This document shows, piece by piece, positions 1 to 22,028 of a stretch of 37,823 nucleotides of DNA. The position numbers and the translations under genes were made by a program. Origin of the DNA: an uncultured Lachnospiraceae bacterium (GTDB taxonomy: Bacteria; Bacillota; Clostridia; Lachnospirales; Lachnospiraceae); contig CADBZI010000024.1 in NCBI GenBank assembly GCA_902799015.1, forward strand, positions 1-37,823, read 5' to 3'. A model generated the notes under the pieces. It saw nothing but the letters and a program-made list of their open reading frames with translations. It was not told the DNA's origin and did not search any database. Position 1 is the first letter of the stretch. Each line of letters starts with the position of its first letter.

Positions 1-1259
1 TTGCTACCGCCGCTCCATCCGTCAGCGCAGACGGAAAGAAGGATGTTGTCGTCATCTTCATTTGCAATCTCCACCCCGTTCAGGGTAATGACCGCATTCG
101 TATTGGTCACGTGGAAGACATGTCCGCTCTTGCTGGTAAGGCTGCCGCCTGTCATCGTGAAATGACTGGTGCCGCTGGCTGCATCTCCTGACATCGACTG
201 GTAGATCATAATGCTGTCCAGGAAAGTGGCATTGCCATTGCACTGTGTATTATTCGCTGTCAGATCGCAGTCTGTCAGTTCGATGGAGTTCAGTCCTTCG
301 ATGCATACCCCCTCCGAGAGATTGGAGGTGAGTGTCGCATTATCCACATGGATCTCAGCAGTGGAATAGATCGCCGGAGATCCCAGCCCGTTTGAGGTAT
401 AATTTCCGCCGTTCACATACACCGTGCCGCCGCCTCTGTCGGAACGAATCGCCGCGGAGGACTGTCCGCTGGTTGTGACATCCAGGTCATAGGCATAGGT
501 GGTGCCGCCGCCTGTGGTCATGATACCGCCGGAGCCTGAACCTGTTGTCGTGATGGTTGTGTCCCGGATCACGACCGTGGTACCATCTCCCTGCGCTCCG
601 TTCTGGCCGCCGTTTCCTCCGTAGCTGAACACACCATTCGCTCCGCTTGCATCTGTTGTGATCGTTCCGCCGGTGATGGTGGTCACAGATCCGTCCTTCA
701 CCAGAATGCCCGCATTCACCCCATAGAAATTACTGCTGTCACCGCCGTCGGAATCACCGGTTTTGGTGACGGTAGGATCTGTAATGGTTACTTCATCGGA
801 CGTCGCGATCAAAAGCGCGTTTTCATCGGACGACGTGCTCGCATAGGTTTGTCCGCTCTGTTCGTCGGACGACGTGATCTCTTCGGCTGCCGTATAGGTA
901 ATGTCCGCATCACTCTGACCCGGGCCTCCGTTTCCATCCGGCGGTGTTCCGCCGGGGCCGCCATTCCCATCGGGAGCAGCTCCTCCGGGGCCGCCGTTTC
1001 CGTCCGGCGGTGTTCCGCCGGGACCCACGTTTCCATCCGGCGGTGCCTGCATTCCCTCCGGTGCATCCGCAGGCGGATCTCCCGGTATGCTGCCGCTTTC
1101 CGCTTCAGATGACTCCCCGGAGGAAACCGTCGCTTCCACCTGCTCCGGCTGACCGGACGATGCAGCCGAATCGTCCGCAGAGCTTTCTGCCTGCGCACAC
1201 ATACTCACTGTCAGCATTGCCGGCAGCAAAAACGCCAAAACCTTACTTCTATACTTCAT
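1..1259 (-). CDS. Secreted repeat-rich protein, predicted right-handed beta-helix (C-terminus beyond window)
   Basis: At least 419 residues are visible and the reading frame is still open at the window edge. The ATG at 1259 is preceded by AAGGAGG about 8 bases upstream. Residues 1-23 look like a signal peptide (MKYRSK then a hydrophobic stretch); a Cys at 21 lacks a good lipobox, so lipidation is doubtful. A Ser/Glu-rich segment is followed by a Gly-Pro-Asp-Asn repeat (residues 73-115). From about residue 140 there are short repeating units rich in Thr, Gly, Asn and Asp, with patterns such as GGTITT and TTTGSG. These are typical of parallel beta-helix surface proteins and Cthe_2159-type carbohydrate-binding domains. 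It lies just downstream of the histidine kinase gene and shares a promoter type with the tannase-like gene at 3502-5739. The function is unknown; a cell-surface or polysaccharide-binding role is inferred from the fold only. Confidence 0.75.
   Translation of the reverse strand, partial: MKYRSKVLAFLLPAMLTVSMCAQAESSADDSAASSGQPEQVEATVSSGESSEAESGSIPGDPPADAPEGMQAPPDGNVGPGGTPPDGNGGPGGAAPDGNGGPGGTPPDGNGGPGQSDADITYTAAEEITSSDEQSGQTYASTSSDENALLIATSDEVTITDPTVTKTGDSDGGDSSNFYGVNAGILVKDGSVTTITGGTITTDASGANGVFSYGGNGGQNGAQGDGTTVVIRDTTITTTGSGSGGIMTTGGGTTYAYDLDVTTSGQSSAAIRSDRGGGTVYVNGGNYTSNGLGSPAIYSTAEIHVDNATLTSNLSEGVCIEGLNSIELTDCDLTANNTQCNGNATFLDSIMIYQSMSGDAASGTSHFTMTGGSLTSKSGHVFHVTNTNAVITLNGVEIANEDDDNILLSVCADGWSGGS
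915..1043 (-). repeat. Tandem Gly/Pro/Asp/Asn-coding repeat
   Basis: About four imperfect copies of a unit encoding PPDGNGGPGG with a 1-2 residue spacer (TPP, AAP, TPP) occupy residues 73-115 of the beta-helix protein. The unit is about 33 bases long. It looks like a flexible linker between the N-terminal segment and the beta-helix. A compositionally similar Gly/Pro/Asp-rich stretch occurs in the tannase-like lipoprotein, at residues 460-515. Confidence 0.8.
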
Positions 1260-1288
1260 AATGATTGCCTCCTTGTTCTTTGATGGTG

Positions 1289-2533
1289 TCATTGTATAGA
1301 AGATAGATTGAAGCAAGATTGAAGAATGACAGTAAACCGGATCCTCTGATCCTGGCAGGATACCTGAATGGTTCCTCCATGATTGTCCGCCACTGCTTTC
1401 GCGATGGAAAGACCCAGCCCGTAATGTCCCTCCTCACTGCTGCGTGCCTCATCAAGCCGGTAAAAACGATCAAAAAGATGCGCCTGCTCAGCCAGAGGAA
1501 TCTCCTCTCCGTCATTTTCCACCGTCAAAACAGCATTGTGTCCCTGCCGGTTCAGATGCAGATCGATCTCACTGCCTGTCGAATGGCGGATCGCATTGTC
1601 GATCAGGACAGATACCAGCTGCGTCAGCTGCACCGGATTGCCCATGAGAAGGATCCCTTCCGCAATCTGTTCCCTGATCTGCTTTCCCTTTTCAAAGGCA
1701 ATGCTTTCCTGGGCAAGCACTTCTCCCTCTACGATGCGGGACAGGTCAACCCGCTCCATGACAGTCCCGGCGTTCTCCGCGCGGGAAAGGTCCAAAAGCT
1801 GGGTGACAAGAGCGCCCATGCGGTCATTTTCATACTGAATGTTCGCAAGCCACTCATTTTCCCCGACCTCCCTTGATAAAAGCTCCGCGTTCGCACCGAT
1901 CACCGCAACCGGGGTCTTGAGCTCATGACTCGCGTCAGAGATGAATCGCTTCTGGCGGCTGTCATTCTCCTCCAGCGGACGTATAATCCGCTTCGACAGG
2001 ATCAGGGAAAGGAAAAACAGAACGACCATAGCACTGCCGCCGACGATCAGAATGATCCGCAGCAGTATACTCATCCCTGTCTCTGTCACTGTGGTATCGA
2101 TAAATGCAGCCAGCATATAACCGCCCTTATCACGAATCAGAAAAGCCAGATTGCCATAGTTCCCGGAAGAGCGGCTGCCGTTCACCAGATCTTTTGCAAT
2201 CCCCGTCAGCTCCTCCTCACTGTACAGATTCTTGTCCCCGGTATTGACTGCGAGTACCGAGCCGTCCTTGTCCAGCGCCACGCTGTAAAAAGTGGAAAGC
2301 TGAAAATCCGGTCCCTCCTCGACTGCCGGTTTCCGGCCGGGCTGCTGTGATGCTTCTTTTACCGGATTCAGTTCCAATGCATACAGATCTGCATAGCGTT
2401 CCAGCAGCATCTGATTGTTGTGCCCGATCTCACGCCGGTTCTCGAGTACAATCACAGACAGCGTCACAACGAACAACAGGATCAGGGATCCCATAATGGA
2501 AAGGATGATCTTTCTCCTTGACTTCTCAAACAT
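1289..2533 (-). CDS. Sensor histidine kinase of a two-component system
   Basis: 414 residues. The ATG at 2533 overlaps the end of the response regulator gene by 8 bases and has GAGGGA upstream; a GTG one codon earlier is possible. There is an N-terminal membrane segment (about 9-30), an extracytoplasmic sensor region (about 35-155) and a second membrane segment (about 157-180). The HisKA domain carries SHELKTP (phosphorylated His near 203). The ATPase domain shows the N box (LIDNAIRHS), a DGEEIP stretch in the G1 position, and GLGLSIAK in G2. The sensor domain resembles no family I can name, so the signal is unknown. The last residues (about CFNLSSIQ) are encoded by the promoter of the next gene and look like an extension over the usual kinase end. 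It acts at the membrane and should phosphorylate the regulator encoded immediately upstream. Confidence 0.93.
   Translation of the reverse strand: MFEKSRRKIILSIMGSLILLFVVTLSVIVLENRREIGHNNQMLLERYADLYALELNPVKEASQQPGRKPAVEEGPDFQLSTFYSVALDKDGSVLAVNTGDKNLYSEEELTGIAKDLVNGSRSSGNYGNLAFLIRDKGGYMLAAFIDTTVTETGMSILLRIILIVGGSAMVVLFFLSLILSKRIIRPLEENDSRQKRFISDASHELKTPVAVIGANAELLSREVGENEWLANIQYENDRMGALVTQLLDLSRAENAGTVMERVDLSRIVEGEVLAQESIAFEKGKQIREQIAEGILLMGNPVQLTQLVSVLIDNAIRHSTGSEIDLHLNRQGHNAVLTVENDGEEIPLAEQAHLFDRFYRLDEARSSEEGHYGLGLSIAKAVADNHGGTIQVSCQDQRIRFTVILQSCFNLSSIQ
1291..1323 (-). promoter_or_regulatory. Promoter of the beta-helix gene with an OmpR/PhoB-like direct repeat
   Basis: On the minus strand two copies of TTCAATC (at 1317-1323 and 1306-1312) are spaced 11 bp start to start, followed after 9 bp by the -10 box TACAAT (1291-1296). 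There is no separate -35 hexamer, which is usual for promoters activated by OmpR-family regulators. The -10 overlaps the TGA stop of the histidine kinase, and the repeats encode its last residues. The ATG of the target gene lies 31 bp beyond the -10. The same layout recurs at 5771-5803. Confidence 0.65.
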
Positions 2534-3212
2534 CACGTTCCCTCAATTCATATCCCAGGCCGCGCACAGCCTTGATCTCAACCCGGGATCCGACAAAGGC
2601 CAGCTTCTTCCGCGTAAATGACATATATACTTCTACGTTATTGTATTCTGCCTCGCTCTCATACCCCCAGATCTTCAAGGCAAGCTGATCCCTCGTCATG
2701 ATCTGCCCCTGGTTGGAAAACATATATTCAAGAATATGGAGTTCCTTCTCTGACAGTCGTACACTCTGCCCTGTCGTTTCGCAGGTAAGGACAGCCGAGG
2801 AGGTGTTCAGAGACAGGTCTTTGCAGATCAGACACCCGTCCTCGTGAAAGCCGGTATTCCTCCGGCCAAGCGCACGCAGTCTCGCCAGCAGTTCTTTGGT
2901 CTGAAACGGCTTTGTCAGATAATCATCCGCCCCGCTGTCCAGTCCTGTCACCTTATCGTCCAGCTGACTCTTCGCCGTCAGCATCAGAATCGGTGTGGTT
3001 ACCCCCTTGCTTCTTGCGCGGCGGGCGACCTCATACCCATTCATCTCCGGCATCATGACATCGAGGATCGCGATGTCATAGATCCCGCTCTCAAGGACCG
3101 CAAGCGCCGACGCACCGTCTTCCATATGATCGACGTCATATCGTTCCTGTTTCAAAAGAGCCACAAGGGCTGCTGCCATTCTTTTTTCATCTTCTGCAAG
3201 GAGGATCCTCAT
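2526..3212 (-). CDS. OmpR/PhoB-family response regulator
   Basis: 228 residues. The receiver domain (1-115) has the acidic pocket E7/D8, the phosphoacceptor D51 in ILDVMMPEMNG, T79 and K101 in LTKPF. The C-terminal winged-helix DNA-binding domain (about 128-225) contains the SEKELHILEYM and TRDQLALKIWG blocks typical of Trans_reg_C. The start at 3212 has only a weak ribosome site, but it fits the receiver N-terminus (MRILLAEDE). The gene overlaps the kinase and has its own promoter at 3264-3292. Two flanking secreted-protein genes carry direct repeats with the 11-bp period that this protein class binds, so they are the probable targets. Confidence 0.95.
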   Translation of the reverse strand: MRILLAEDEKRMAAALVALLKQERYDVDHMEDGASALAVLESGIYDIAILDVMMPEMNGYEVARRARSKGVTTPILMLTAKSQLDDKVTGLDSGADDYLTKPFQTKELLARLRALGRRNTGFHEDGCLICKDLSLNTSSAVLTCETTGQSVRLSEKELHILEYMFSNQGQIMTRDQLALKIWGYESEAEYNNVEVYMSFTRKKLAFVGSRVEIKAVRGLGYELRERDV

Positions 3213-3421
3213 ATCAATACCGTCTTTCTGATACTCTTCACAAACGCATTTTGTCTCAGCCGCATGCTATCACAGCCATTTTTCCATGTCAAAATACATG
3301 TGATTCTTCCGATCTCCTTTAGAGTGATTTCGCGGAAGCTCATCGTCTGATAGAGCTGCTCACAGGCATTGATGATTTCTTCTCTTTTCCGGGCAATCTG
3401 TTCCGATGTTATTTTTCTCAT
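3209..3421 (-). pseudogene. Truncated TetR-family regulator (N-terminal stub)
   Basis: A 70-codon frame begins like a TetR-family regulator: residues 1-38 (MRKITSEQIARKREEII... to LKEIG) match the first helices leading into the helix-turn-helix. The recognition helix (normally a TSFTRTSIYNYF-like block) and the whole ligand domain are missing. The remaining ~32 codons are unrelated, overlap the promoter of the two-component operon and end at its start codon. The start has no strong ribosome site. It is most likely the remnant of a regulator gene. A short functional peptide is possible but less likely. Confidence 0.65.
3264..3292 (-). promoter_or_regulatory. Promoter of the two-component operon
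   Basis: On the minus strand TTGACA (3287-3292), a 17-bp spacer and TAGCAT (3264-3269) lie about 50 bp before the response regulator ATG. The promoter sits inside the open frame of the TetR-like stub, exactly where TetR homology has been lost. No TTCAATC repeat is present, so autoregulation by that site is not evident. Confidence 0.6.
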
Positions 3422-3450
3422 CTTTATTCTCTCATCATTCCGCAGAATAC

Positions 3451-3463
3451 TGACACTGTGTCA
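3451..3463. promoter_or_regulatory. Perfect 13-bp palindrome, candidate TetR-type operator
   Basis: TGACACTGTGTCA is a perfect inverted repeat around a central base, about 30 bp upstream of the TetR stub start. A second half-site TGACAC lies at 3487-3492. Position and form fit an autoregulatory operator of the now truncated TetR regulator. It also lies just downstream of the tannase-like gene stop. Confidence 0.5.
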
Positions 3464-3501
3464 GCATATTAATGATACATATGCTCTGACACGTTCAGTT
3501 G

Positions 3502-5739
3502 TTAATGGAACAGCTCTGCGAGGGTGTCTGCATACTCCTCAAAAACCTTCAAAACATAGATATCCCAGTGGCGCGCATCGGCAGTACTGCTTCCGAAGAC
3601 ATAGTCTTCCTGTCCATAATCCATCACGTCGAAGCCTGGCATCGCCTTGACCGCGCCGGAGGTCCGGTATGCCACAGTTCCTGCAAGCGTCATGCTGACG
3701 CCGCTTGTACTGTCGTAGCTGACCCAGCCGGAAAGATCGGTTCCTGCAGGCTCCGTGCCGTCTCCATTGGAGATCTGACCGCTCGCGGCAGCCTTCGTGA
3801 TCTTTACTGCACCATCCACATACTCGCCGTACATGGTATCTACGTAAAGGGCAAGAGAATCACCGAAGATCTCAGACGGTACATGACCGCCGTTCCACTG
3901 CCATTCGATCTCTGCGTCGGTTCCGGCATTCAGCCAGGCAATCTGCAGGTTCAGGGAGTTCATCATGGAGATATCGCCCTCAGAAGCGCCCATCAGGATC
4001 CTTGCCCATGAGGGACCATCTGTTCCTTCAGCTCCGATATAATTCAGCGGGTTATAGAGATCAACGATATTGTTTCCGTATTCGTCTCCGGCCTGAATCT
4101 CGGCAATATCTGCCTGATAGGCAGCCAGCATCTCTTCAAAGGAAGCATAATTCGCAGAATCGGCCTTGCTGGAAGCAGACTGTGTAGTGCCAGAGTCAGG
4201 CGTTCCGACTTCATTACTGCTGCCACCGTTCATGTCGGGGGGACCGCCTGCACTGTCTCTGCCGGGACCGCCGCTTCCCATATCAGGAAGACCCCCTGCG
4301 AAATCACCGTCAGGACCGCCGCTGCCGCCGAGACCGCCTTCCTTACCGCCAGAGCCGCTGCCGGTGCTCCCCTTGACATACCAGCCGTTGATGAATGCTT
4401 CCGCACGGTCTGCATCCGTCATCGCCGCAACTTCGCTGTCAGAAAGAGCTGTGCCGTCACTGTTAAACCAGGTCCAGTCTTCCGCGTAAGCAAGCCGGTC
4501 AATATAATCCTGTAAGCTCTGCTCAAATTCCGCAAGATACAGATCAAGGTAAGTTCCGTAGTAACCGTTGGTATCCGTATGCCCGGTTTCATCATATTCG
4601 ATGGTGAGAGCGACCGTATCAGAGGTATCACCATCACCGTTCAGATCGAAACCAACCTTTGACTCATCAACGGACAGATTCTGTGCGTTGATATACTCCA
4701 TATACTCAGCCGCCAGATACTCTGCGAGCTGCTTCTGGAAATCCGTATTGAAGCTGTAGTCCGGATTCAGGTAATACTCGAAAGCCAGCGTCATGTCCGC
4801 TTCGGCAAGGGAAGTAATGGCGCTGTAGGCCATGCAGCCCCAGAGGCCATCGGAGAGTTCCACTTCACTGCCGTTCACCGTGACCGTGGTGCTGTAGCTG
4901 CCGTCAGAGTTCTTATAGACGCCGACCGCTCCCTGTGAGATCTCATAATCATAGAAGTCAGAATGGTTGGATGTCGCAGCCAGCATGGTGGCATGCGCAC
5001 CGCCGCCGGACCCGCCGGTGGAGACGAAATAGTCCACGCTGCCGGGAAGATTTCCGAGCAGAATGTTGAACTTCACGAAGCGAACAGCATTCTTCTGATC
5101 CACCAGGCAGGACGGGGCGTCGCCGGTATAGGTGCCGTCAGACAAAGTGCTCTGCTTGCCGCGGTTGCCGCAGGCGATATTGATATAGCCTTCCCTTGCA
5201 TACGTTGTTCCCGCTGTCTGATTTGACTGTGCGGAGTAGCCTGCTGCGCCGGTATTGATGATGACCGGAGCGGTTGCTGCCGTATAGACCTGGCCGTTGG
5301 TGCTTGTCACTGTCGCGTCGTAATCAATAACAAGAATACCGGAGGCTGTACCGCTGGAAACATCCGCATTGCCGTCGCCATCGGTATCCACACCCTTCAC
5401 ATATGCGCCGGGCACGCAGACGGACACACCCTGGCAGTCAGGAAGCTCTGCGTTGGTGACGGCTGTCACAATAGCCATCGTCCAGGCATCGGCGTTTTCG
5501 GAATACGTCCATTCCGGCTTGATGTTTGCCAAGTTAAGTGCGGACTCAATGTCTGTCTTCTCCGTACTGTCCGCAGTGATCACTGTCGTATCGGCAGACT
5601 GGCTCTGACTATGATCAGCTGCCGGCGGTGTACTGTTATTATTTGTCGTAGTTTCGCCTGAACATGTGCCGCAGGCCGCAATCCCCAGGACGAGGACCAG
5701 TGCAAGAAAAATCGCAAGCATATTTCTGAATTTCTTCAT
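3502..5739 (-). CDS. Tannase-like (subtype B) alpha/beta-hydrolase lipoprotein
   Basis: 745 residues. The start at 5739 has GGGAGG 7 bases upstream; the frame extends 11 codons further but without a ribosome site. Lipoprotein signal: a hydrophobic stretch and LGIAAC with Cys23. Residues ~75-270 resemble the first half of bacterial tannases: SVCVPGAYV, APVIINTGAAGY, NIACGNRGK, APSCLVDQKNAVRFVKFN, and the nucleophile elbow GGSGGG with Ser244. A lid-like region follows (~300-455), then a Gly/Pro/Asp-rich linker (~456-525). The second catalytic block (~555-640) has a likely Asp589 in GASEGD and His619 in NGGHVP. The C-terminal block (~665-735) carries KAMPGFD and VFGSS...HWD. In Lactobacillus plantarum tannase, as I remember it, this last block precedes the Asp/His block. 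An esterase acting outside the cell on gallate-type or other aromatic esters is inferred. Substrate unproven. Confidence 0.75.
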   Translation of the reverse strand: MKKFRNMLAIFLALVLVLGIAACGTCSGETTTNNNSTPPAADHSQSQSADTTVITADSTEKTDIESALNLANIKPEWTYSENADAWTMAIVTAVTNAELPDCQGVSVCVPGAYVKGVDTDGDGNADVSSGTASGILVIDYDATVTSTNGQVYTAATAPVIINTGAAGYSAQSNQTAGTTYAREGYINIACGNRGKQSTLSDGTYTGDAPSCLVDQKNAVRFVKFNILLGNLPGSVDYFVSTGGSGGGAHATMLAATSNHSDFYDYEISQGAVGVYKNSDGSYSTTVTVNGSEVELSDGLWGCMAYSAITSLAEADMTLAFEYYLNPDYSFNTDFQKQLAEYLAAEYMEYINAQNLSVDESKVGFDLNGDGDTSDTVALTIEYDETGHTDTNGYYGTYLDLYLAEFEQSLQDYIDRLAYAEDWTWFNSDGTALSDSEVAAMTDADRAEAFINGWYVKGSTGSGSGGKEGGLGGSGGPDGDFAGGLPDMGSGGPGRDSAGGPPDMNGGSSNEVGTPDSGTTQSASSKADSANYASFEEMLAAYQADIAEIQAGDEYGNNIVDLYNPLNYIGAEGTDGPSWARILMGASEGDISMMNSLNLQIAWLNAGTDAEIEWQWNGGHVPSEIFGDSLALYVDTMYGEYVDGAVKITKAAASGQISNGDGTEPAGTDLSGWVSYDSTSGVSMTLAGTVAYRTSGAVKAMPGFDVMDYGQEDYVFGSSTADARHWDIYVLKVFEEYADTLAELFH

Positions 5740-14285: not shown

Positions 14286-14804
14286 TTACCGCTCCAGGGC
14301 AAATCTTACTTTCGCATTTTTACCGCACAGATCCCTCAGACTGATCATTTCTCCGTCCTCCAGGGTCAGCGTATGGTCTGAAACCGTCCCTACAAAGTAG
14401 ACCAGGTCCTCCATCTTTCGGTCAAATCCCGTGATGATCATGCTTCCGTCTTCCCCGTATTCCAGCTTCTGCCCTTCCTCCAGCTGCGTCTGAACACCGG
14501 CACCGAACCCATAATACACTGTCTTCACAACATAGATTCCGTCCGGTCGGATCTCGTAGTAATCCGTGACCGGACTTTTGTTAACCGAATGAATAAAACC
14601 AATACTGAAGGTATCGGACATGCGGACCGGATAACGAGCGTAGATCTGACCGGTCTTCACAGAAGAAAGGACCAGATAGCCTCTTTGCCGCTGATACGCG
14701 AATGCGGCAGCCAGAACCGCAAAAATCAGGATCAGGACTGCCGCAATACTTTTTACACGAAATGCCCGTGCGTCTCGTTGACCCGAAGCGCCCGTATTAC
14801 TCAA
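14286..14804 (-). CDS. DUF1850 domain-containing membrane-anchored protein of the TAXI-TRAP operon
   Basis: About 172 residues if translation starts at TTG 14804, which overlaps the TAXI gene stop by 8 bases; a GTG at 14840 is an alternative. No ATG is available at the 5' end. One N-terminal membrane helix (VKSIAAVLILIFAVLAAAFAY) anchors an extracytoplasmic domain with the DUF1850 hallmarks: FSIGFIHSVNKSPVTDYYEI, YYGFGAGVQ and the ISLRDLCG end. DUF1850 genes are regularly located between TAXI binding proteins and TRAP permeases. The protein is presumed to assist substrate transfer or complex assembly; the biochemical role is unknown. Confidence 0.85.
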   Translation of the reverse strand: MSNTGASGQRDARAFRVKSIAAVLILIFAVLAAAFAYQRQRGYLVLSSVKTGQIYARYPVRMSDTFSIGFIHSVNKSPVTDYYEIRPDGIYVVKTVYYGFGAGVQTQLEEGQKLEYGEDGSMIITGFDRKMEDLVYFVGTVSDHTLTLEDGEMISLRDLCGKNAKVRFALER

Positions 14805-15753
14805 CCTCGATGCCCTGCTCCTCGAAATACTTCTTTGCACCGGCGTGGAACGGTACGCTGATGCCCTTTACCGCATCTTCAAGATTCAGGAACTCAAACT
14901 TTGCATGTCCTGCAATCAGATCTTCCTGATTGTCAAACATTGCCTTGAGAAGCTCATATACTGCTTCTTCGCTGACATCATTGGAAGCAATCAGAGTCGC
15001 GCGGACGGAAACCGTCGTAGCATCCTCGTCAACTCCATCGTAGGTGCCGGCCGGAATCACAGTCTCCGTATAGAAGTCATACTTCTCCTGCAGCTTCCCA
15101 ATGTGCTCTTCATCCAGCTGAACCAGGCTGACATCCTTTGTAGTCGCCAGGTCAACAACCGCTGTGGTCGGAGCGCCTGCAACGATGAATGCCGCGTCAA
15201 TCTTGCCGTCTTTCAGGCTGTCCGCGGAATCACCGAAGGAAGCATTCACAACATTGATATCATCAAATGTCATGTCATAGGCTTCCAGAATCTGCTTCGC
15301 GTTGAACTCTGTGCCGGATCCCGCGTCACCGACGGAAACCGTCTTGCCCTTCAGATCCGCAACGCTTGCAATCGAGCTGTCGCAGGTCACGATCTGAACT
15401 GTCTCATCATAAAGTCCGGCTACTGTGGAGAATGTCTCATATTTGCCCTCATCCTCGAACAGGTCGGTTCCGGTATAAGCATAATACATGACGTCGTTCT
15501 GCACGATCGCCAGATCCGCTTCTCCTACATCAACCAGCTGAATGTTCGCCTTGGATGCACCTGTGGACGTGACTGTCAGACTGGACTCCTTCAGAACCGG
15601 ATTCAGAACAGTCGCCATAACACCGCCTACCGCATAGTAGGTACCGGTTGTTCCGCCGGTTCCAAGAGTCAGATTATCCGCGGCCATCGCGGCTGTGGAT
15701 CCCCCAATCACCATGCTCGCAGCCATCACGATTCCAAGAATTTTCTTTTTCAT
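14797..15753 (-). CDS. TAXI-family TRAP transporter solute-binding protein
   Basis: 318 residues. The ATG at 15753 follows GGAGGT. The signal peptide (1-24, cleavage near AMAA-D) has no lipobox Cys, so the protein is predicted to be released or held by the permease rather than lipid-anchored. The mature N-terminus LTLGTGGTTGTYYAVGGVMATVLN is the TAXI signature. GKTVSVGDAGSGTEFNAKQIL and DGKIDAAFIVAGAPTTAVVDL are further conserved blocks. It captures the substrate outside the cell and delivers it to the permease at 12306-14264. It is first in the operon, with its own promoter at 15826-15854. Confidence 0.95.
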   Translation of the reverse strand: MKKKILGIVMAASMVIGGSTAAMAADNLTLGTGGTTGTYYAVGGVMATVLNPVLKESSLTVTSTGASKANIQLVDVGEADLAIVQNDVMYYAYTGTDLFEDEGKYETFSTVAGLYDETVQIVTCDSSIASVADLKGKTVSVGDAGSGTEFNAKQILEAYDMTFDDINVVNASFGDSADSLKDGKIDAAFIVAGAPTTAVVDLATTKDVSLVQLDEEHIGKLQEKYDFYTETVIPAGTYDGVDEDATTVSVRATLIASNDVSEEAVYELLKAMFDNQEDLIAGHAKFEFLNLEDAVKGISVPFHAGAKKYFEEQGIEVE

Positions 15754-15877: not shown

Positions 15878-15914
15878 TCACAAAAACGCGCTTCTTTTTC
15901 TGAAGCGCGTTTTG
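15878..15914 (-). terminator. Terminator of the opp operon
   Basis: AAAACGCGCTTC (15883-15894) and GAAGCGCGTTTT (15902-15913) form a perfect 12-bp stem with a 7-base loop. On the minus strand it runs into TTTTTG. It lies 225 bases after the binding-protein stop, beyond the multi-branched palindrome. Confidence 0.88.
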
Positions 15915-15939: not shown

Positions 15940-16132
15940 GACGATTCACGGCTCCCCGTCCAGGCCTCAGGCCATCCATGCTTCGCATGTCTGTCGCTGC
16001 TTTCGCAGCTTCTGCCTGAGGCTGTCCTGTGGGGAGCCGCTTCGCGCCTTTGATCTGAGTCCCGATCTGCCACTTACAAGCCCTGCGGGCTTGACGTGTC
16101 AGACGCGCGACTCAGATCGGCCGTGAATCGTC
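15940..16132. repeat. 193-bp multi-branched palindromic element
   Basis: Outer arms GACGATTCACGGC (15940-15952) and GCCGTGAATCGTC (16120-16132) enclose two further stems. One is GGCTCCCC/GGGGAGCC (15950-15957 with 16031-16038), containing CCTCAGGC/GCCTGAGG and small CATGC-TTC-GCATG and GCTGC-TTTC-GCAGC hairpins. The other is GATCTGAGTC/GACTCAGATC (16052-16061 with 16109-16118), containing AAGCCC-TGC-GGGCTT. Folded, it gives a multi-way junction. It begins 6 bases after the opp binding-protein stop and lies in that transcript's 3' region. No frame of interest is seen; it could be a structured RNA or a palindromic mobile element. Confidence 0.85.
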
Positions 16133-16138
16133 TTGTTA

Positions 16139-17884
16139 TTATCGTCCAAACTGGGCGTCGTTGTTGCCGGAGTCGGTCAGCCACATCTCGAGCATATTGA
16201 TCGGGTCGTTGTAGTCTGCCAGCCATCCTTCACGTGCGAAGTCGAACTGTCCGTTCTTTCTGTCGTTCAGGAAGACATTCCACTCTTCGGACTTGATCTC
16301 CATGTTGATGCCGACGACTGCCAGATCCTGCTGGATCGACTGTGCGATCGCTACATGGCCGGTTCCGTCGTTGGTCAGATACTCGACCGTGATCGGAGTA
16401 GAGTCAGACAGCATTCCGTCTTCGCCAAACTCGAAGCCGGCTTCCTCAAGGAGTGCTCTTGCCTCGTCGACATTGTCAACGCCTGTTGCAGTCGGATCGA
16501 AGTAGCCGACAGCTTCCTCGCCGTTGAAGTCCCAGGTGACCGGATACTCATAATCATCATCGTTGACTGCGAACACGCCGCCCTGGCCGTCTGCCATTCC
16601 TGCCGGAATGAAGGTGCCTGCCGGCTGCTGGCCAGTCTGGCCAACCGCGTCAACAATGTACTGACGATCGATCAGGATGGAGAATGCATGTCTCATCGCC
16701 GCAGCCTGCTCCGGAGTCTTGCCGTCAAACAGCGGGCTGTTGACATTGAATGCCACATAGTAGGTTCCAAGGTTCGGGACAATGAAGAAGTCCTCGTTGT
16801 TGATCACGTTCGCGATCTCATCGTTCGGAACGGTATCGATGAACTGAAGGGAACCATCATTGTAAGCGTTGTAGATCGCGGTGTCATCCGCGCTCAGCAT
16901 GAAGTTGATGGAATCAAGGGTTACGTTCTCCGCATTCCAGTAATTCTCATTCTTCTCATAAGTCATGGACTCGTTATGCTTCCATGCAGTGCAGGTCATC
17001 GGACCGGAGGTGACGAATCCGCTCTCCAGTGCCCATGCGCCAGGATTCTCTCCATCCGGATCTGCCTCAGTGACAGCCTGCTCCGGTACCGGGAAGAATG
17101 CCGGGAATGCACACAGATCAAGGAAGTACGCGCACGGCTGGGTCAGGTGGCAGGTGAAGGTAAGTCCGTCATCAGAAGCCTCGATGCCCAGAGTTCCGTC
17201 ATCGTTTCTCTCAAGGTTCATGGAATCGCACAGATAGCTGTAGTCAGCAGCGGTATTCGGATCCGCAAGACGGTTCCAGGAATACACGATATCCTCAGCA
17301 TCCAGCGGCTCGCCGTCCGACCACTTCAGGCCTTCTCTGATCTTGAAGGTATAGGTCAGGCCGTCCTCGGAAACCTCCGGCATCTCCTCTGCCAGCTCCG
17401 GAATCAGCTGTCCCTCTTCATCATACGCAAACAGTCCGGAGAACGCCAGGATCGCCAGGCATGCGCCGTCCACGGAGCTGTTCAGCGCCGGATCAAGGTG
17501 ATCAGGCTCGGAAGCAAGGTTTGCGTTCAGGGTATTGTCCGGTGTATTCATATATGCGAAATACTTGAAGCCGAACAGATTCGAGTACAGTCCGGTACAT
17601 TCCGTATTCATCATGTAGATGTCATTGTAGAAGTAGATCGGGATGACAGCCCATGTGTCCATCAGCTCGTCTTCCGCTTCATGCATCAGCGCCTCACGCT
17701 TTGCCAGATCAGTCTCCTGATAGATCTCAGCGATCTTCTCATTATAGTCATCCCAATCCGGGGCTGCCTCAGAGCTCTTTGATGCAGGTGCAGCTGCTTC
17801 GGTCTCGTCCGCCATCGCGTACATTCCGAAGGAAGACAGCACCATTGCACTGGCAAGCAGTACAGATACCAAACGTTTCTTCAT
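16139..17884 (-). CDS. Peptide ABC transporter substrate-binding protein, apparently circularly permuted
   Basis: 581 residues. The ATG at 17884 follows AAGGAGGAGG. The signal peptide (1-25, AMA-D) has no lipobox Cys. Residues 43-112 (WDDYNEKIAEIYQETD..., LMHEAEDELMDTWAVIPIYFY, ...GLYSNLFGFKYFAYM) match what is normally the extreme C-terminus of OppA/DppA-type proteins. From about 114 (DNTLNANLASEPDHLDPALN) the usual mature N-terminus begins, and the rest follows in normal order: GLTYTFKIREGLKWSDGEPL, SGPMTCTAWKHNESM, FSILIDRQYIV, and DPINMLEMW...GNNDAQFGR. It stops exactly where the WDDYN segment would usually continue. The last gene of the opp operon, it should feed peptides to the permeases. 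The residue order is seen directly; the permutation is judged against family knowledge. Confidence 0.92.
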   Translation of the reverse strand: MKKRLVSVLLASAMVLSSFGMYAMADETEAAAPASKSSEAAPDWDDYNEKIAEIYQETDLAKREALMHEAEDELMDTWAVIPIYFYNDIYMMNTECTGLYSNLFGFKYFAYMNTPDNTLNANLASEPDHLDPALNSSVDGACLAILAFSGLFAYDEEGQLIPELAEEMPEVSEDGLTYTFKIREGLKWSDGEPLDAEDIVYSWNRLADPNTAADYSYLCDSMNLERNDDGTLGIEASDDGLTFTCHLTQPCAYFLDLCAFPAFFPVPEQAVTEADPDGENPGAWALESGFVTSGPMTCTAWKHNESMTYEKNENYWNAENVTLDSINFMLSADDTAIYNAYNDGSLQFIDTVPNDEIANVINNEDFFIVPNLGTYYVAFNVNSPLFDGKTPEQAAAMRHAFSILIDRQYIVDAVGQTGQQPAGTFIPAGMADGQGGVFAVNDDDYEYPVTWDFNGEEAVGYFDPTATGVDNVDEARALLEEAGFEFGEDGMLSDSTPITVEYLTNDGTGHVAIAQSIQQDLAVVGINMEIKSEEWNVFLNDRKNGQFDFAREGWLADYNDPINMLEMWLTDSGNNDAQFGR

Positions 17885-17989: not shown

Positions 17990-18970
17990 TTACTTGTTCC
18001 AGCAGGCTACCAGATGGCCGTTTCCTCTGTCCGTGAGCTTCGGCATCTCTGCGGAGCACTGCTCAGTCGCGTACTTGCATCTCGTCCGGAACGGGCATCC
18101 GCTCGGCATATGAAGCGGGCTCGGCACATCTCCCTCCAGAATGATTCTCTTGCTGGACTTTGCCACCTTCGGATCCGGATAGGGGACCGCGCTCAGCAAG
18201 GATGTGGTATAGGGGTGAATCGGATGTGCGTTCAGTTCATCCGCATCCGCAGTCTCCACCATCTTGCCCAGATACATGACTGCAATTCTCTTCGAGATAT
18301 GATGCACCACCAGAAGGTCATGTGCGATAAACAGATATGCGACGCCAAGTTTCTTCTGCAGGTCCTCAAACATATTGATAACCTGCGCCTGAATCGACAC
18401 ATCGAGCGCAGATACCGCTTCATCACAGACGATAAAACGAGGATTGGTTGCCAGCGCTCTGGCGATACCGATTCTCTGTCTCTGTCCGCCGGAAAACTCA
18501 TGTGCGTAACGTGTCGCATGCTCCGCATTCAGGCCGACCAGCTCCATCAGATGCAGAATCTTCTCTCTTCTGTCCGAGCGGCTGGTGTACAGCTTATGGA
18601 CATCCAGCGGTTCTCCGATGATGTCCTCAACCGTCATACGCGGATTCAGAGAAGAATACGGATCCTGAAACACCATCTGCATATCCTTGCGCAGGGTTCC
18701 GATCGACTTTTCATCTACCCTCTTCCCGTCAAAGAACACATCGCCGTCCGTCGGCTTATACAGACGAATCAATGCTCTGCCGACAGTGGTCTTTCCGCAT
18801 CCGGATTCTCCGACCAGTCCGAGCGTCTCACCCGGCTTAATGGAGAAGGAAACGCCGTCAACCGCTTTAAGGGGTGTGGTAGAAAACATTCCCGTCTTGA
18901 TCGGGAAATACATCTTCAGATCATTTACCTCAACCAGGTTTTCCGGGTTTGGCTTGTAATTTTTATCCAT
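17990..18970 (-). CDS. Oligopeptide ABC transporter ATP-binding protein (OppF-like)
   Basis: 326 residues from the ATG at 18970, preceded by GGGGAGG; a 14-codon upstream extension lacks support. Walker A is GESGCGKTT, the Q-loop region is MVFQDPYSSLNPRMTV, the signature is FSGGQRQRIGIARAL, Walker B is FIVCDEAVSALD and the switch His is in FIAHDLLVV. The C-terminal oligopeptide/dipeptide domain has CPFRTRCKYATEQC plus a final ACW; these four cysteines probably bind an iron-sulfur cluster as in related transporters. It lies 16 bases downstream of the OppD-like gene and 105 bases upstream of the binding protein gene. With OppD it powers peptide import at the inner face of the membrane. Confidence 0.95.
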   Translation of the reverse strand: MDKNYKPNPENLVEVNDLKMYFPIKTGMFSTTPLKAVDGVSFSIKPGETLGLVGESGCGKTTVGRALIRLYKPTDGDVFFDGKRVDEKSIGTLRKDMQMVFQDPYSSLNPRMTVEDIIGEPLDVHKLYTSRSDRREKILHLMELVGLNAEHATRYAHEFSGGQRQRIGIARALATNPRFIVCDEAVSALDVSIQAQVINMFEDLQKKLGVAYLFIAHDLLVVHHISKRIAVMYLGKMVETADADELNAHPIHPYTTSLLSAVPYPDPKVAKSSKRIILEGDVPSPLHMPSGCPFRTRCKYATEQCSAEMPKLTDRGNGHLVACWNK

Positions 18971-18986
18971 TCTCTCTGTCCTCCCC

Positions 18987-20015
18987 TTATGTCCCGGCTT
19001 CGGCAACGGCATCTGCCTGCATCCCGCCTGACGATATCTGGGCCTGGATCACCTTCCAGCAGGCTGCACGGTGACCGTCCGGGGTTTCCACCTCCGGAGG
19101 CTGTTCTACCAGACAGATCTTCATGGCCTCATCGCAGCGGGGACAGAACGCGCAGCCCTTCGGCATATTCAGAAGATTGATCGGCGTACCGGAGATCGGC
19201 TCCAGCCGTTTCCCCATCGTGTCAACATTCGGGATCGAGCGCAGGAGTCCTTTCGTATACTCATGGCTGGGACGATAGAAAATATCCTCGGCAGTCCCTC
19301 TCTCACAGACGCGTCCGCCATACATGACAATAATCTCGTCCGCCATCTGTGCAATCACTCCAAGGTCATGCGTCACCATGATAATCGCCATGCCCAGTTT
19401 CTTCTGAAGATCCTGCATCAGCTCCAGAATCTGCGCCTGAATCGTCACGTCCAGAGCCGTCGTCGGCTCATCCGCGATCAGAATGTCAGGTTCGCAGGCA
19501 AGGGCCATGGCAATCATGACTCTCTGTCTCATACCGCCCGAGAATTCGAACGGATACTGGTGGATCCTCTTTTCCGGCTCATTGACACCGACGAGCTCCA
19601 GCATCTCAATTGCACGCTTCTCCGCTTCTTTTCCTTTGCGGTTTGTGTGAAGCTTGATCGCTTCTTTGAGCTGGAATCCGATGGTAAAGACCGGATTCAG
19701 GCTTGTCATCGGATCCTGGAAAATAATCGAGCAGCATTTGCCGCGGAAATCGCGCATCCTGCTTTCCGGCCACTTCGTAATGTCTTCTCCCTTGTAGAGA
19801 ATCTGTCCGGACTTGATGGATCCGTTCTTCTCCAGAATCTGCATGATCGAATAGGCGCTGACAGACTTGCCGGATCCCGATTCCCCGACAATGCCCAGAA
19901 TCTTTCCCTCCGTCAGGTTAAAGGTAACACCGTTGACCGCCTGCACCTCTCCTTTATCGGTTGTGAAAGAGGTATGGAGGTCGATTACCGACAGAATGTT
20001 TTTCTCTTCAGCCAT
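18987..20015 (-). CDS. Oligopeptide ABC transporter ATP-binding protein (OppD-like)
   Basis: 342 residues. The ATG at 20015 follows AAGGAGGT. Walker A GESGSGKSVSAYSIM, Q-loop IIFQDPMTSLNPVFTIG, signature FEFSGGMRQRVMIAMAL, Walker B ILIADEPTTALDVTIQAQ and the HDLGVIAQMAD switch are all present. The C-terminal domain has the cysteine cluster GCAFCPRCDEAMKIC and a final ACW. Gene order and the GRVCERG block are typical of OppD/DppD. It forms the ATPase heterodimer with the product of the next gene. Confidence 0.95.
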   Translation of the reverse strand: MAEEKNILSVIDLHTSFTTDKGEVQAVNGVTFNLTEGKILGIVGESGSGKSVSAYSIMQILEKNGSIKSGQILYKGEDITKWPESRMRDFRGKCCSIIFQDPMTSLNPVFTIGFQLKEAIKLHTNRKGKEAEKRAIEMLELVGVNEPEKRIHQYPFEFSGGMRQRVMIAMALACEPDILIADEPTTALDVTIQAQILELMQDLQKKLGMAIIMVTHDLGVIAQMADEIIVMYGGRVCERGTAEDIFYRPSHEYTKGLLRSIPNVDTMGKRLEPISGTPINLLNMPKGCAFCPRCDEAMKICLVEQPPEVETPDGHRAACWKVIQAQISSGGMQADAVAEAGT

Positions 20016-20020
20016 CTCTC

Positions 20021-21103
20021 TTACCTCCTTAACTTCGGATCAAATGCGTCTCTGAGACCGTCGCCCAGCAGATTGAACGCCAGAGTGATCAGACCGATCA
20101 TGAGCGCCGGGAACACCAGCTTATAGGTGTAGGTCGTGATGCCGCTTCTGGCCGCACTCGCGAGAGAACCAAGGGACGGCATGGGGGCCTTCACACCCAG
20201 CGAAATGAAGCTCAGGAAGGACTCTGTGAAGATTGCGGACGGAATCTGCAATGCAGCTGAAATGATGATCACGCTGATGCAGTTCGGAAGAATGTGTCTG
20301 CGGATGATCCGGCTGCTTTTCGCACCGCTGACCTTTGCCGCCAGGACATATTCATTTTGCTTGATGGTAAGAATCTGTCCGCGGACCAGTCTGGCCATGC
20401 CAACCCAGTACAGAAGCCCGAAGACAATGAACAGAGAGATCATGTTCGTGCCAAGCCGTGCCAGGATCCCGTTTCCGTCGAATTTCAGGACTTCGTTCAG
20501 AACAACGGAAAGCAGGATGATCATCAGAAGATCCGGCAGCGAGTATATGACATCAACAAACCGCATCATAATCAGGTCGACTTTCCCTCCGAAATACCCG
20601 GATATGGAACCATAGAGAACGCCGATCACCAGAACGATCGCGCTCGCGAAAACACCGACCAGCAGAGAGATCCTTGTACCGTAAGCAACACGGACAAAGT
20701 AATCACGGCCCAGTTCGTCGGTTCCCATGATATGGGGGAAAACCTTGCCGCCTTCATCGATATACTGCTGTTCCAGCTTGGAATACGTGAATGGCGCCAT
20801 GTTGGTCGCACTCTTGTCCCTCTTCCCGTTTACCGTGATGATATCGGAATAGCTGTAGGGTACGATCACGGGAACAAGCGTGATCATAAGGATAATTGCA
20901 ATCAGTACGACGATACTGAACATAGCCAGCGGATTCTTTCTCAGCTTCCGCATGCCATCCCGGAAGAAGGATGTGGATTCGCTCATCACATCGGCCTGCT
21001 TCTTTTCCTCATCGGTTGCCTTTTCAAACTTTTGAAGATCGATCTGCAGAGAGAGCGGATTCTTCTTTGGCATCTTGTTGACATCTGCTGCTTCTTTTGC
21101 CAT
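20021..21103 (-). CDS. Oligopeptide ABC transporter permease (OppC/DppC-like)
   Basis: 360 residues. The ATG at 21103 follows AAGGAGGGGAG. A long cytoplasmic N-terminal tail (1-55) precedes the first membrane helix (~57-80). MGTDELGRDYFVRVAYGTRISLLVG is the DppC signature, and the EAA loop that docks the ATPases is EYVLAAKVSGAKSSRIIRRHILPN. About six membrane helices are evident, and the end LNLLGDGLRDAFDPKLRR is typical. It is 13 bases downstream of the OppB-like gene; the two permeases form the membrane channel. Confidence 0.95.
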   Translation of the reverse strand: MAKEAADVNKMPKKNPLSLQIDLQKFEKATDEEKKQADVMSESTSFFRDGMRKLRKNPLAMFSIVVLIAIILMITLVPVIVPYSYSDIITVNGKRDKSATNMAPFTYSKLEQQYIDEGGKVFPHIMGTDELGRDYFVRVAYGTRISLLVGVFASAIVLVIGVLYGSISGYFGGKVDLIMMRFVDVIYSLPDLLMIILLSVVLNEVLKFDGNGILARLGTNMISLFIVFGLLYWVGMARLVRGQILTIKQNEYVLAAKVSGAKSSRIIRRHILPNCISVIIISAALQIPSAIFTESFLSFISLGVKAPMPSLGSLASAARSGITTYTYKLVFPALMIGLITLAFNLLGDGLRDAFDPKLRR

Positions 21104-21116
21104 TTTGCTCCCCTCC

Positions 21117-22028
21117 TTAATCCAGGTTGATGCGCGGATCGATCAGTTTATACACGATGTCCGTCAACAGGTTCATCGTGACCATAAAGACAGCAAGGAA
21201 GATCGTGACCCCCATGATCATCGGGTAATCACGGTTTGTGATGCTCTGGACAAACTCGGCGCCCAGTCCGCCGATCGTGAAGATCTGCTCGACGACCAGA
21301 GAGCCGGTCAGTACGCCTGCGATCATCGGTCCCAGGTAAGTGACCACCGGAATCAATGCGTTCCGCAGCGTATGAACGAACAAAACCTTCCACTGCGCGA
21401 CACCTTTGGCGCGGGCTGTGCGGACATAGTCCTGTCCCATGACGTCCAGCATGGAAGTCTTGGTCAGCCTCGTGATATAGGCAGCAGGATACATGGCCAG
21501 CGCAATCACGGGAAGCACCAGATTCTGATTGGTCGGGCTCCAGGCACGCACCCAGCCCAGCTTCACGGAGAAAATGACCAGAAGAAAGGATCCCAGAACA
21601 AAGCTTGGAAGCGATGTAAACAGCGTTGACAGGAATATAATGACCCGGTCAGGCCACCGGTTTCTCTGCAGTGCCGCGATGCTTCCGAACACCACGCCGA
21701 GAAAGACAGCCAAAAGAACTGCCATGATACCCAGCTTTGCCGAAACCGAGAACTTGGAGCCGATCGTCTCAGAGATTTCACGGCCTGTCTTCGCGCTGAT
21801 CCCGAAGTCTCCATGAAGAAGATTCTTCATGTAGATCACAAACTGCTCCCCCACCGGCTTATCGAGATTGAAACGTTTTTCCAAAGCTGCCTGTACTTCC
21901 GGTGACTTCGCCTTCTCTCCCGCGAACGGTCCGCCCGGTATTGCATTCATCGTAAAGAAGGTGATGAAGCATACGATAAAGATCGTCACAATTGCGAGAA
22001 GGACTCTTTTGAATATGTATTTACCCAT
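21117..22028 (-). CDS. Oligopeptide ABC transporter permease (OppB/DppB-like)
   Basis: 303 residues. The ATG at 22028 follows AGAAGGAG. The first helix MGKYIFKRVLLAIVTIFIVCFITFF and the FFTMNAIPGGPF block open the protein. The EAA loop is DYVRTARAKGVAQWKVLFVHTLRNALIPVVTY. Six membrane helices are expected; the end YKLIDPRINLD is typical. It is the first gene of the operon, with a strong promoter at 22069-22097 and a leader of about 35 bases. Confidence 0.95.
   Translation of the reverse strand: MGKYIFKRVLLAIVTIFIVCFITFFTMNAIPGGPFAGEKAKSPEVQAALEKRFNLDKPVGEQFVIYMKNLLHGDFGISAKTGREISETIGSKFSVSAKLGIMAVLLAVFLGVVFGSIAALQRNRWPDRVIIFLSTLFTSLPSFVLGSFLLVIFSVKLGWVRAWSPTNQNLVLPVIALAMYPAAYITRLTKTSMLDVMGQDYVRTARAKGVAQWKVLFVHTLRNALIPVVTYLGPMIAGVLTGSLVVEQIFTIGGLGAEFVQSITNRDYPMIMGVTIFLAVFMVTMNLLTDIVYKLIDPRINLD

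Follow-up and report, generated by a model that had tools for sequence, protein, structure and literature searches.

A very probable circular permutation of an OppA-like peptide-binding protein encoded in an opp operon of an uncultured Lachnospiraceae bacterium

The opp operon in the window (the whole stretch of 37,823 nucleotides analysed here) raises the question of whether its last gene encodes an OppA-like substrate-binding protein with its segments in rearranged order, and, if so, how widespread this order is and how it arose. An earlier note had claimed, from the letters and translations of this DNA, that the protein is circularly permuted and that residues 43-112 correspond to the C-terminus of the family. 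The operon reads oppB-oppC-oppD-oppF-oppA on the minus strand, with the permuted gene in last position and a purine-rich, ribosome-binding-like sequence ahead of its ORF; the features are the following.

16139..17884, minus strand: permuted OppA-like substrate-binding protein, whole ORF (P0001), 581 amino acids plus stop codon; PF00496
17759..17884, minus strand: signal peptide and A/S/E-rich linker, residues 1-42; SPase-I-like by eye, without lipobox
17549..17758, minus strand: transposed segment made up of residues 43-112; its homologue in canonical proteins is their C-terminus, with the end of domain III and the last part of domain I
17534..17548, minus strand: new junction linker NTPDN, about 5 residues, leading from the old C-terminal end to the old mature N-terminal end
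16142..17533, minus strand: core, residues 118-581, with the canonical mature N-terminus, domains I and II and most of domain III; ends in GNNDAQFGR
17990..19012, minus strand: oppF, ABC ATPase with oligo_HPY (Pfam)
18987..20015, minus strand: oppD, ABC ATPase with oligo_HPY (Pfam)
20021..21103, minus strand: oppC permease, BPD_transp_1 and OppC_N (Pfam)
21117..22028, minus strand: oppB permease, BPD_transp_1 (Pfam)
15883..15913, no strand assigned: hairpin (I2), then a short T run on the minus strand; possible terminator downstream of the operon
15940-16132 of the window, no strand assigned: GC-rich element of about 190 bp with perfect 13-bp terminal inverted repeats, GACGATTCACGGC / GCCGTGAATCGTC

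Segment order in the window protein

PF00496 (SBP_bac_5) is the sole Pfam family matched at E ≤ 0.001; it covers residues 160-575 with an E-value of 1.2e-84 and extends over profile positions 2-367 of 368, and no cluster B sugar-binding fold of the Tp0684 type (see below) was matched. Since PF00496 alone gives an ordinary match, linear domain-model annotation hides permutations of this kind. The rearrangement emerges when the segments are aligned separately: in a phmmer search of PDB chains, residues 117-575 aligned with positions 22-444 of Bacillus subtilis DppE (8ay0), and residues 46-106 with DppE positions 452-512 (i-Evalue 8.4e-06). The same swapped layout recurred in four other PDB chains with alignments among the matches listed, with the short stretch individually non-significant in each (i-Evalues 0.012, 82, 1e+03 and 1.4). 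Instead of the canonical segment order (domains I-II-I-III-I), the C-terminal ~70 amino acids of the family precede the mature N-terminus. The 60 PDB chains listed bear names of family-5-like binding proteins, such as those for peptides, heme or nickel; among the matches listed for the permuted profile (60 of 100), the best stretch never starts before profile position 139, and these sequences look canonical because their stretches begin past the moved segment. Separate profiles of the segment (residues 43-112) and of the core (residues 118-581), both built from 29 permuted proteins, placed the segment after the core in canonical proteins and before it in permuted ones.

The closest canonical relatives are the proteins of loci L088, L089 and L090, from the same family group, and of L015, from Lachnospiraceae; they are encoded in the same operon, but differ from the window protein in their canonical order, in the presence of a lipobox and in a loop of 7-9 amino acids at the break site. 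Residues 43-114 are 51% identical over 67 amino acids to the C-terminus of L015, and the core is 56% identical to L015 and 59-61% identical to L088, L089 and L090; since the nearest canonical relatives agree for moved segment and core, a single gene was rearranged, and not two different genes fused. The swapped-order alignments to DppE and to these relatives, together with the conservation of the order in orthologues, bear out the permutation and the assignment of residues 43-112 as originally proposed. A fusion, in which the N-terminal 70 residues came from a different binding protein and the core merely lost its own C-terminus, should yield an identical linear layout; we give it very little credence, since the moved segment is closest to a C-terminus of the same subfamily, the core is without the moved part and shows no overlap with it, and the segment tree, weakly supported over 70 columns, repeats the pairings of the core (L079 with the canonical L015 group, L074-L084 with L088/L090).

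All segments of canonical OppA/DppA proteins (DppE 8ay0, OppA 8are, Salmonella 1b05, Borrelia OppA4 4gl8) are shared by the window protein, which resembles these family 5, cluster C proteins (PF00496) in its docking aspartate, its opp operon and its export signal, and is unlike them in its permuted order, in new termini that would lie in domain III instead of domain I, and, for the window member, in the missing lipobox. By sequence alignment, its D557 corresponds to D419 of Salmonella OppA, which we take to be the residue that docks the peptide N-terminus; the equivalent aspartate is invariant across the 29 aligned permuted proteins. From these sequence comparisons and the selection estimates given below, we regard it as very probable that the circular permutation is genuine and that the window protein is a peptide-binding protein maintained by selection, which serves as substrate receptor of the adjacent OppBCDF importer.

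Conservation and spread of the permuted order

The breakpoint type of the window protein, here termed P1, occurs in 16 of the 19 genomes of the window's genus, several of these copies being fragmentary or cut by contig ends; in the other three genomes (70-77% complete) the best hits were canonical relatives only, with 36-38% identity. Among 299 genomes of the family, sampled at about one per genus, 24 carry the permuted order, two of them from the window's genus. Confinement of the permutation to this genus was rejected, P1 having been found in other genera. Further members are L115 and two proteins from different families of the same class, L159 and L160; taken together, the searches yield 41 distinct P1 genomes, among them G202 (locus L169), a single contig rated 100% complete.

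In the list of operons, restricted to loci with at least three opp genes, oppB, C, D and F adjoin the permuted gene in all 29 P1 operons. The opp genes of L200 are divergent (29-54% identity), oppA lies ahead of oppB in L169, and in L012, L178 and L199 one or two opp genes are followed by the contig end. Canonical relatives mostly share the opp neighbourhood (e.g., L175, L176, L177 and L015); opp genes are absent within the stretch examined around L020 and L168, and L206 has an opp gene ~2 kb off. Opp genes adjoin permuted and canonical forms alike. As a separate observation, L166 (G1067), from another family group, has opp genes with 71-82% identity to the window's B, C, D and F genes; these genes and its permuted OppA are as close to those of the window as in many genera of the same family, which suggests operon transfer or an issue of grouping.

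In nine orthologues of the genus (36 pairs), the moved segment has a median dN/dS of 0.092 (measurable in 34 pairs; median dS 1.18), the core one of 0.123 (all 36 pairs; median dS 0.76), the junction one of 0.139 (33 pairs), and signal peptide plus linker one of 0.198 (30 pairs); these values are rough because dS is high (medians 0.7-1.5). Moved segment and core are both under purifying selection. That the permuted gene is a non-functional or decaying relic is accordingly a very slim prospect, even though the permuted oppA of L071 (G288, one contig) contains an in-frame TAG and that of L024/L044 is broken near residue 529, each a possible pseudogene or sequence error; most loci are intact, dN/dS stays near 0.1, docking aspartate and operon are retained, and no close paralogue able to replace the window protein was seen in the window's genome (85% complete). 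An assembly artefact, with collapsed tandem oppA copies mimicking a permutation, would suit the multi-contig drafts that make up most genomes and the neighbouring oppA-like genes of relatives, but its probability is negligible: the order recurs across genomes of genus and family, the identical break and fused junction appear in separate genomes of many genera with their own signal peptide and stop codon, contigs of whole-genome size carry permuted genes (G202, G1292 and G1012 for types P1, P2 and P3), and the low dN/dS likewise disfavours it.

Break site, termini and membrane tether

The window protein ends in GNNDAQFGR, and its moved segment starts with (A)APDWDDYN; canonical L092 reads GNNDTQFGK-DPSNTAAP-DWTKYD across the same site, and canonical relatives read GNNDMQLGK-loop-APEWAEYD. 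The earlier note had the two ends fitting together without loss or overlap; GNNDAQFGR does meet the start of the segment, but the canonical loop is partly missing or now serves as linker. Among the canonical rows listed, this loop measures 6-10 amino acids in the 17 subfamily members; the sister group around L098 has 15-28, and the remaining rows have 1-6. Being longer in the canonical subfamily and the sister group than elsewhere, it probably existed before the break. The junction between the old C-terminal and N-terminal ends varies from 5 to 10 residues across P1 proteins and differs by subclade. A Q-x-G-R/K terminus is found in 28 of the 29 aligned permuted proteins; the exception, L078, runs 8 residues longer, and L160, outside the aligned set, has 5 extra C-terminal residues.

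The available excerpts on Borrelia OppA4 assign residues 30-62, 187-285 and 504-530 to domain I, 63-186 to domain II and 286-503 to domain III, and name Asp431 as the docking residue for the peptide N-terminus (PMC5736914); the domains of AliD are described alike in the portion of text available, with lobe 1 comprising domains I and II and lobe 2 domain III (PMC11192437). The window chain ends 24 residues past D557, at about position 455 in Borrelia numbering by counting, which falls within domain III as delimited in these excerpts. The new termini are consequently predicted to lie in domain III (lobe 2), whereas the canonical termini both lie in domain I. The initial proposal that the termini share one lobe describes the old ends, both in lobe 1; the new ones, as placed here, are in lobe 2. 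With both old termini in domain I, joining them would be easy; with the new termini in lobe 2, any tether would be shifted to the other lobe.

Lipoproteins with a lipobox cysteine are usual, though not universal, among the family-5 binding proteins of Gram-positives. The missing lipobox of the window protein, recognized from the beginning, was confirmed, and its signal looks SPase I-type by eye. With rows sharing their last 60 residues counted once, 23 of the 38 distinct P1 rows matched a simple lipobox pattern, including just 1 of the 13 from the window's genus; the 15 rows without it consist of 12 from this genus (one of these, L049 of G004, is cut off by the contig start) and L070, L080 and L160. 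Most permuted rows outside the genus retain a lipobox, as do both P2 and all three P4 proteins (types described below) and five of six P3 proteins, or more safely four of six, since the match in L152 is doubtful given that its close relative L153 has none. A link between permutation and lipobox loss was rejected on these counts. A lipobox is also absent from several binding proteins with canonical order in the window's genome and genus, including three of the four other family-5 proteins in the window's genome (L002, L004 and L005 by eye; L003 has one). Lack of lipidation seems to characterize the binding proteins of this lineage and not the permutation, since canonical-order relatives are without a lipobox and permuted proteins elsewhere have one.

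Further extracytoplasmic binding proteins in which no lipobox was seen by eye are encoded at positions 14797-15753 of the window and at L053, and Lgt is present in the window's genome, hinting at another retention route in this lineage. L048 (G008, 691-3153) keeps an LAGC motif, and the next 267 residues have a high content of Ala, Glu and Thr; both L048 and L049 are permuted OppA proteins whose low-complexity stalk, built of ETEAEAA-type repeats, is very long, and L054, a canonical protein of the same genus, has a similar stalk.

Taken as a working model, the permuted protein would fold as an ordinary two-lobe OppA, with the old termini side by side in domain I and closed by the short linker, and with the new ends opening a loop at the surface of domain III (lobe 2), where this subfamily and the sister group have more residues than is found elsewhere. 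Peptides would dock via the conserved aspartate (D557) and be delivered to OppBC in the usual way. For most permuted relatives outside the window's genus, a lipid tether would pull on lobe 2 via a long low-complexity linker; within the genus this tether would be mostly gone. The permuted order might have originated from tandem oppA copies, fused in frame between the C-terminal end of copy 1 and the N-terminal end of copy 2 and then trimmed. No tandem intermediate beside a permuted copy was found in the loci fetched. Neighbouring canonical-order oppA-like genes, two to four in a row, occur in G382, G438, G403, G497, G560 and G105; such rows are a possible source for duplication-fusion permutations.

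Other breakpoints and the direction of change

Searches with the permuted profile were extended to 295, 391 and 398 genomes of the order, class and phylum under strict E-value limits; as these limits were strict and only named rows were fetched, the scans should not be read as frequencies. Every listed row starting before profile position 110 was inspected (8 besides the window in one scan), together with late-starting candidate rows and G462, G439 and G556; further permuted proteins may exist among weaker rows. Three additional breakpoint types were recovered. Type P2 is cut at core positions 261-264/272-274, at the start of domain III (L154 and L162; 2 genomes); P3 is cut at 321-358/368-372, in domain III (L152, L153, L161, L163, L164 and L165; 6 genomes); and P4 is cut at about 109-116, in domain II (L181, L182 and L183; 3 genomes, all fragmented assemblies). 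L162 and L164 lie on single contigs of 3.12 and 3.14 Mb. These 11 genomes represent 7 family groups of the phylum, with no P1 family among them, and at 10 of the 11 loci at least three opp genes of the same strand stand directly beside the permuted gene; at L161 they are ~2 kb off on the opposite strand. Other lineages of the phylum have made equivalent permutations elsewhere in the protein. In the permease/ATPase tree, L154 and L162 are parted by well-supported branches, which suggests two events for P2; the separation of L161 from the remaining P3 rows is weakly supported.

Several permutation candidates were rejected: G360 (L155), G1125 (L168) and G1056 (L184) proved canonical, and G1085 (L186), G712 (L187) and G1312 (L188) are cut by contig ends, the remainder being in canonical order. 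The candidate in G152 (L185) is an oppA remainder fused to oppD and not permuted; its 745-aa frame at 2176-4410 on the minus strand contains most of OppD and the later part of OppA, without the OppA N-terminus, and represents a deletion or a misassembly.

Neither the binding-protein tree nor the tree of the transporter genes keeps P1 proteins apart from canonical forms: the two intermingle on both. The core tree (80 rows left of 110 selected, after manual removal of near-duplicates and of distant canonical rows) requires five changes of order for the P1 rows, four of them forced by well-supported branches, and a single permuted clade was rejected (36 versus 44 rows; AU p=6.7e-05). For OppBCDF, 51 of 59 operons were used (L014, L017, L018, L025, L026, L028, L029 and L031 were omitted); after removal of L200 and L206, which have very long branches, the remaining 49 rows require three changes, three of them forced, compared with four and three when L200 and L206 are kept, and a single permuted clade was again rejected (26 versus 23 rows; AU p=8.2e-09). 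Trees of the core in three parts and of the moved segment (48 rows, 70 columns), all weakly supported, need 5-6 changes each, of which 3, 1, 3 and 1 are forced. Since the single P1 clade was rejected on both core and OppBCDF, there was more than one switch of order, whether through repeated gain or through reversion; the near-exact reuse of one C-terminal end argues for few origins, against this verdict of the trees.

The subfamily may have been permuted once, at its base, and have returned to canonical order at least twice; this account is a serious rival to repeated independent gains, at slightly less than even odds, and it concerns history alone, leaving the nature of the protein as described. 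It would need three changes on the OppBCDF tree with other groups as outgroup (one gain, two losses), compared with about five if only gains are allowed; permuted L167 branches first on that tree, and the common end site agrees with a single break. On the other side, a similar loop (GK[D/N]P..AAPDW and variants of it) recurs among canonical members from different subclades; it looks inherited and not rebuilt and so speaks for repeated gains, and the core tree places the canonical pair L120/L121 near the base with weak support. A broader proposal is somewhat less likely than not: permutation may be recurrent and reversible in the cluster C binding proteins of this phylum, with at least four separate breakpoint classes (three in lobe 2, one in domain II), with order flipped several times in one family, including from permuted to canonical, and with selection acting on the attachment site of the N-terminal tether.

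Natural circular permutations tend to be encountered one at a time, as curiosities. Here, one common fold is permuted at four places in ten family groups of one phylum, mostly beside transport genes, and close relatives of the permuted proteins are still in the old order; it appears that nature has rearranged this peptide-binding protein more than once. Among the titles and abstract openings of the open-licence literature, no permuted family-5 protein was found, and Tp0684 was the only natural permuted ABC binding protein recognized there. Tp0684 (MglB-2) of Treponema pallidum is described, in the available sections of its source, as a naturally circularly permuted glucose-binding protein of Type Ic/Cluster Bc (PMC4990184). 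According to the same sections, it parallels the present case as a natural permutation of an ABC-importer binding protein that is common to relatives in other bacteria; it keeps its ligand cleft, and its authors also raise the matter of membrane tethering (PMC4990184). It differs in being a cluster B sugar-binding protein, whose N-terminal strands have moved to the C-terminus within the N lobe (PMC4990184), whereas the proteins described here belong to cluster C, have a C-terminal segment moved forward, break at several points, and have a mixture of permuted and canonical relatives.

Finally, the GC-rich element downstream of the window's oppA stops a few bases from the stop codon of the gene. 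Four other places in the genome match it partially, at 75-88% identity, on account of which it is perhaps a small dispersed repeat, MITE- or REP-like.
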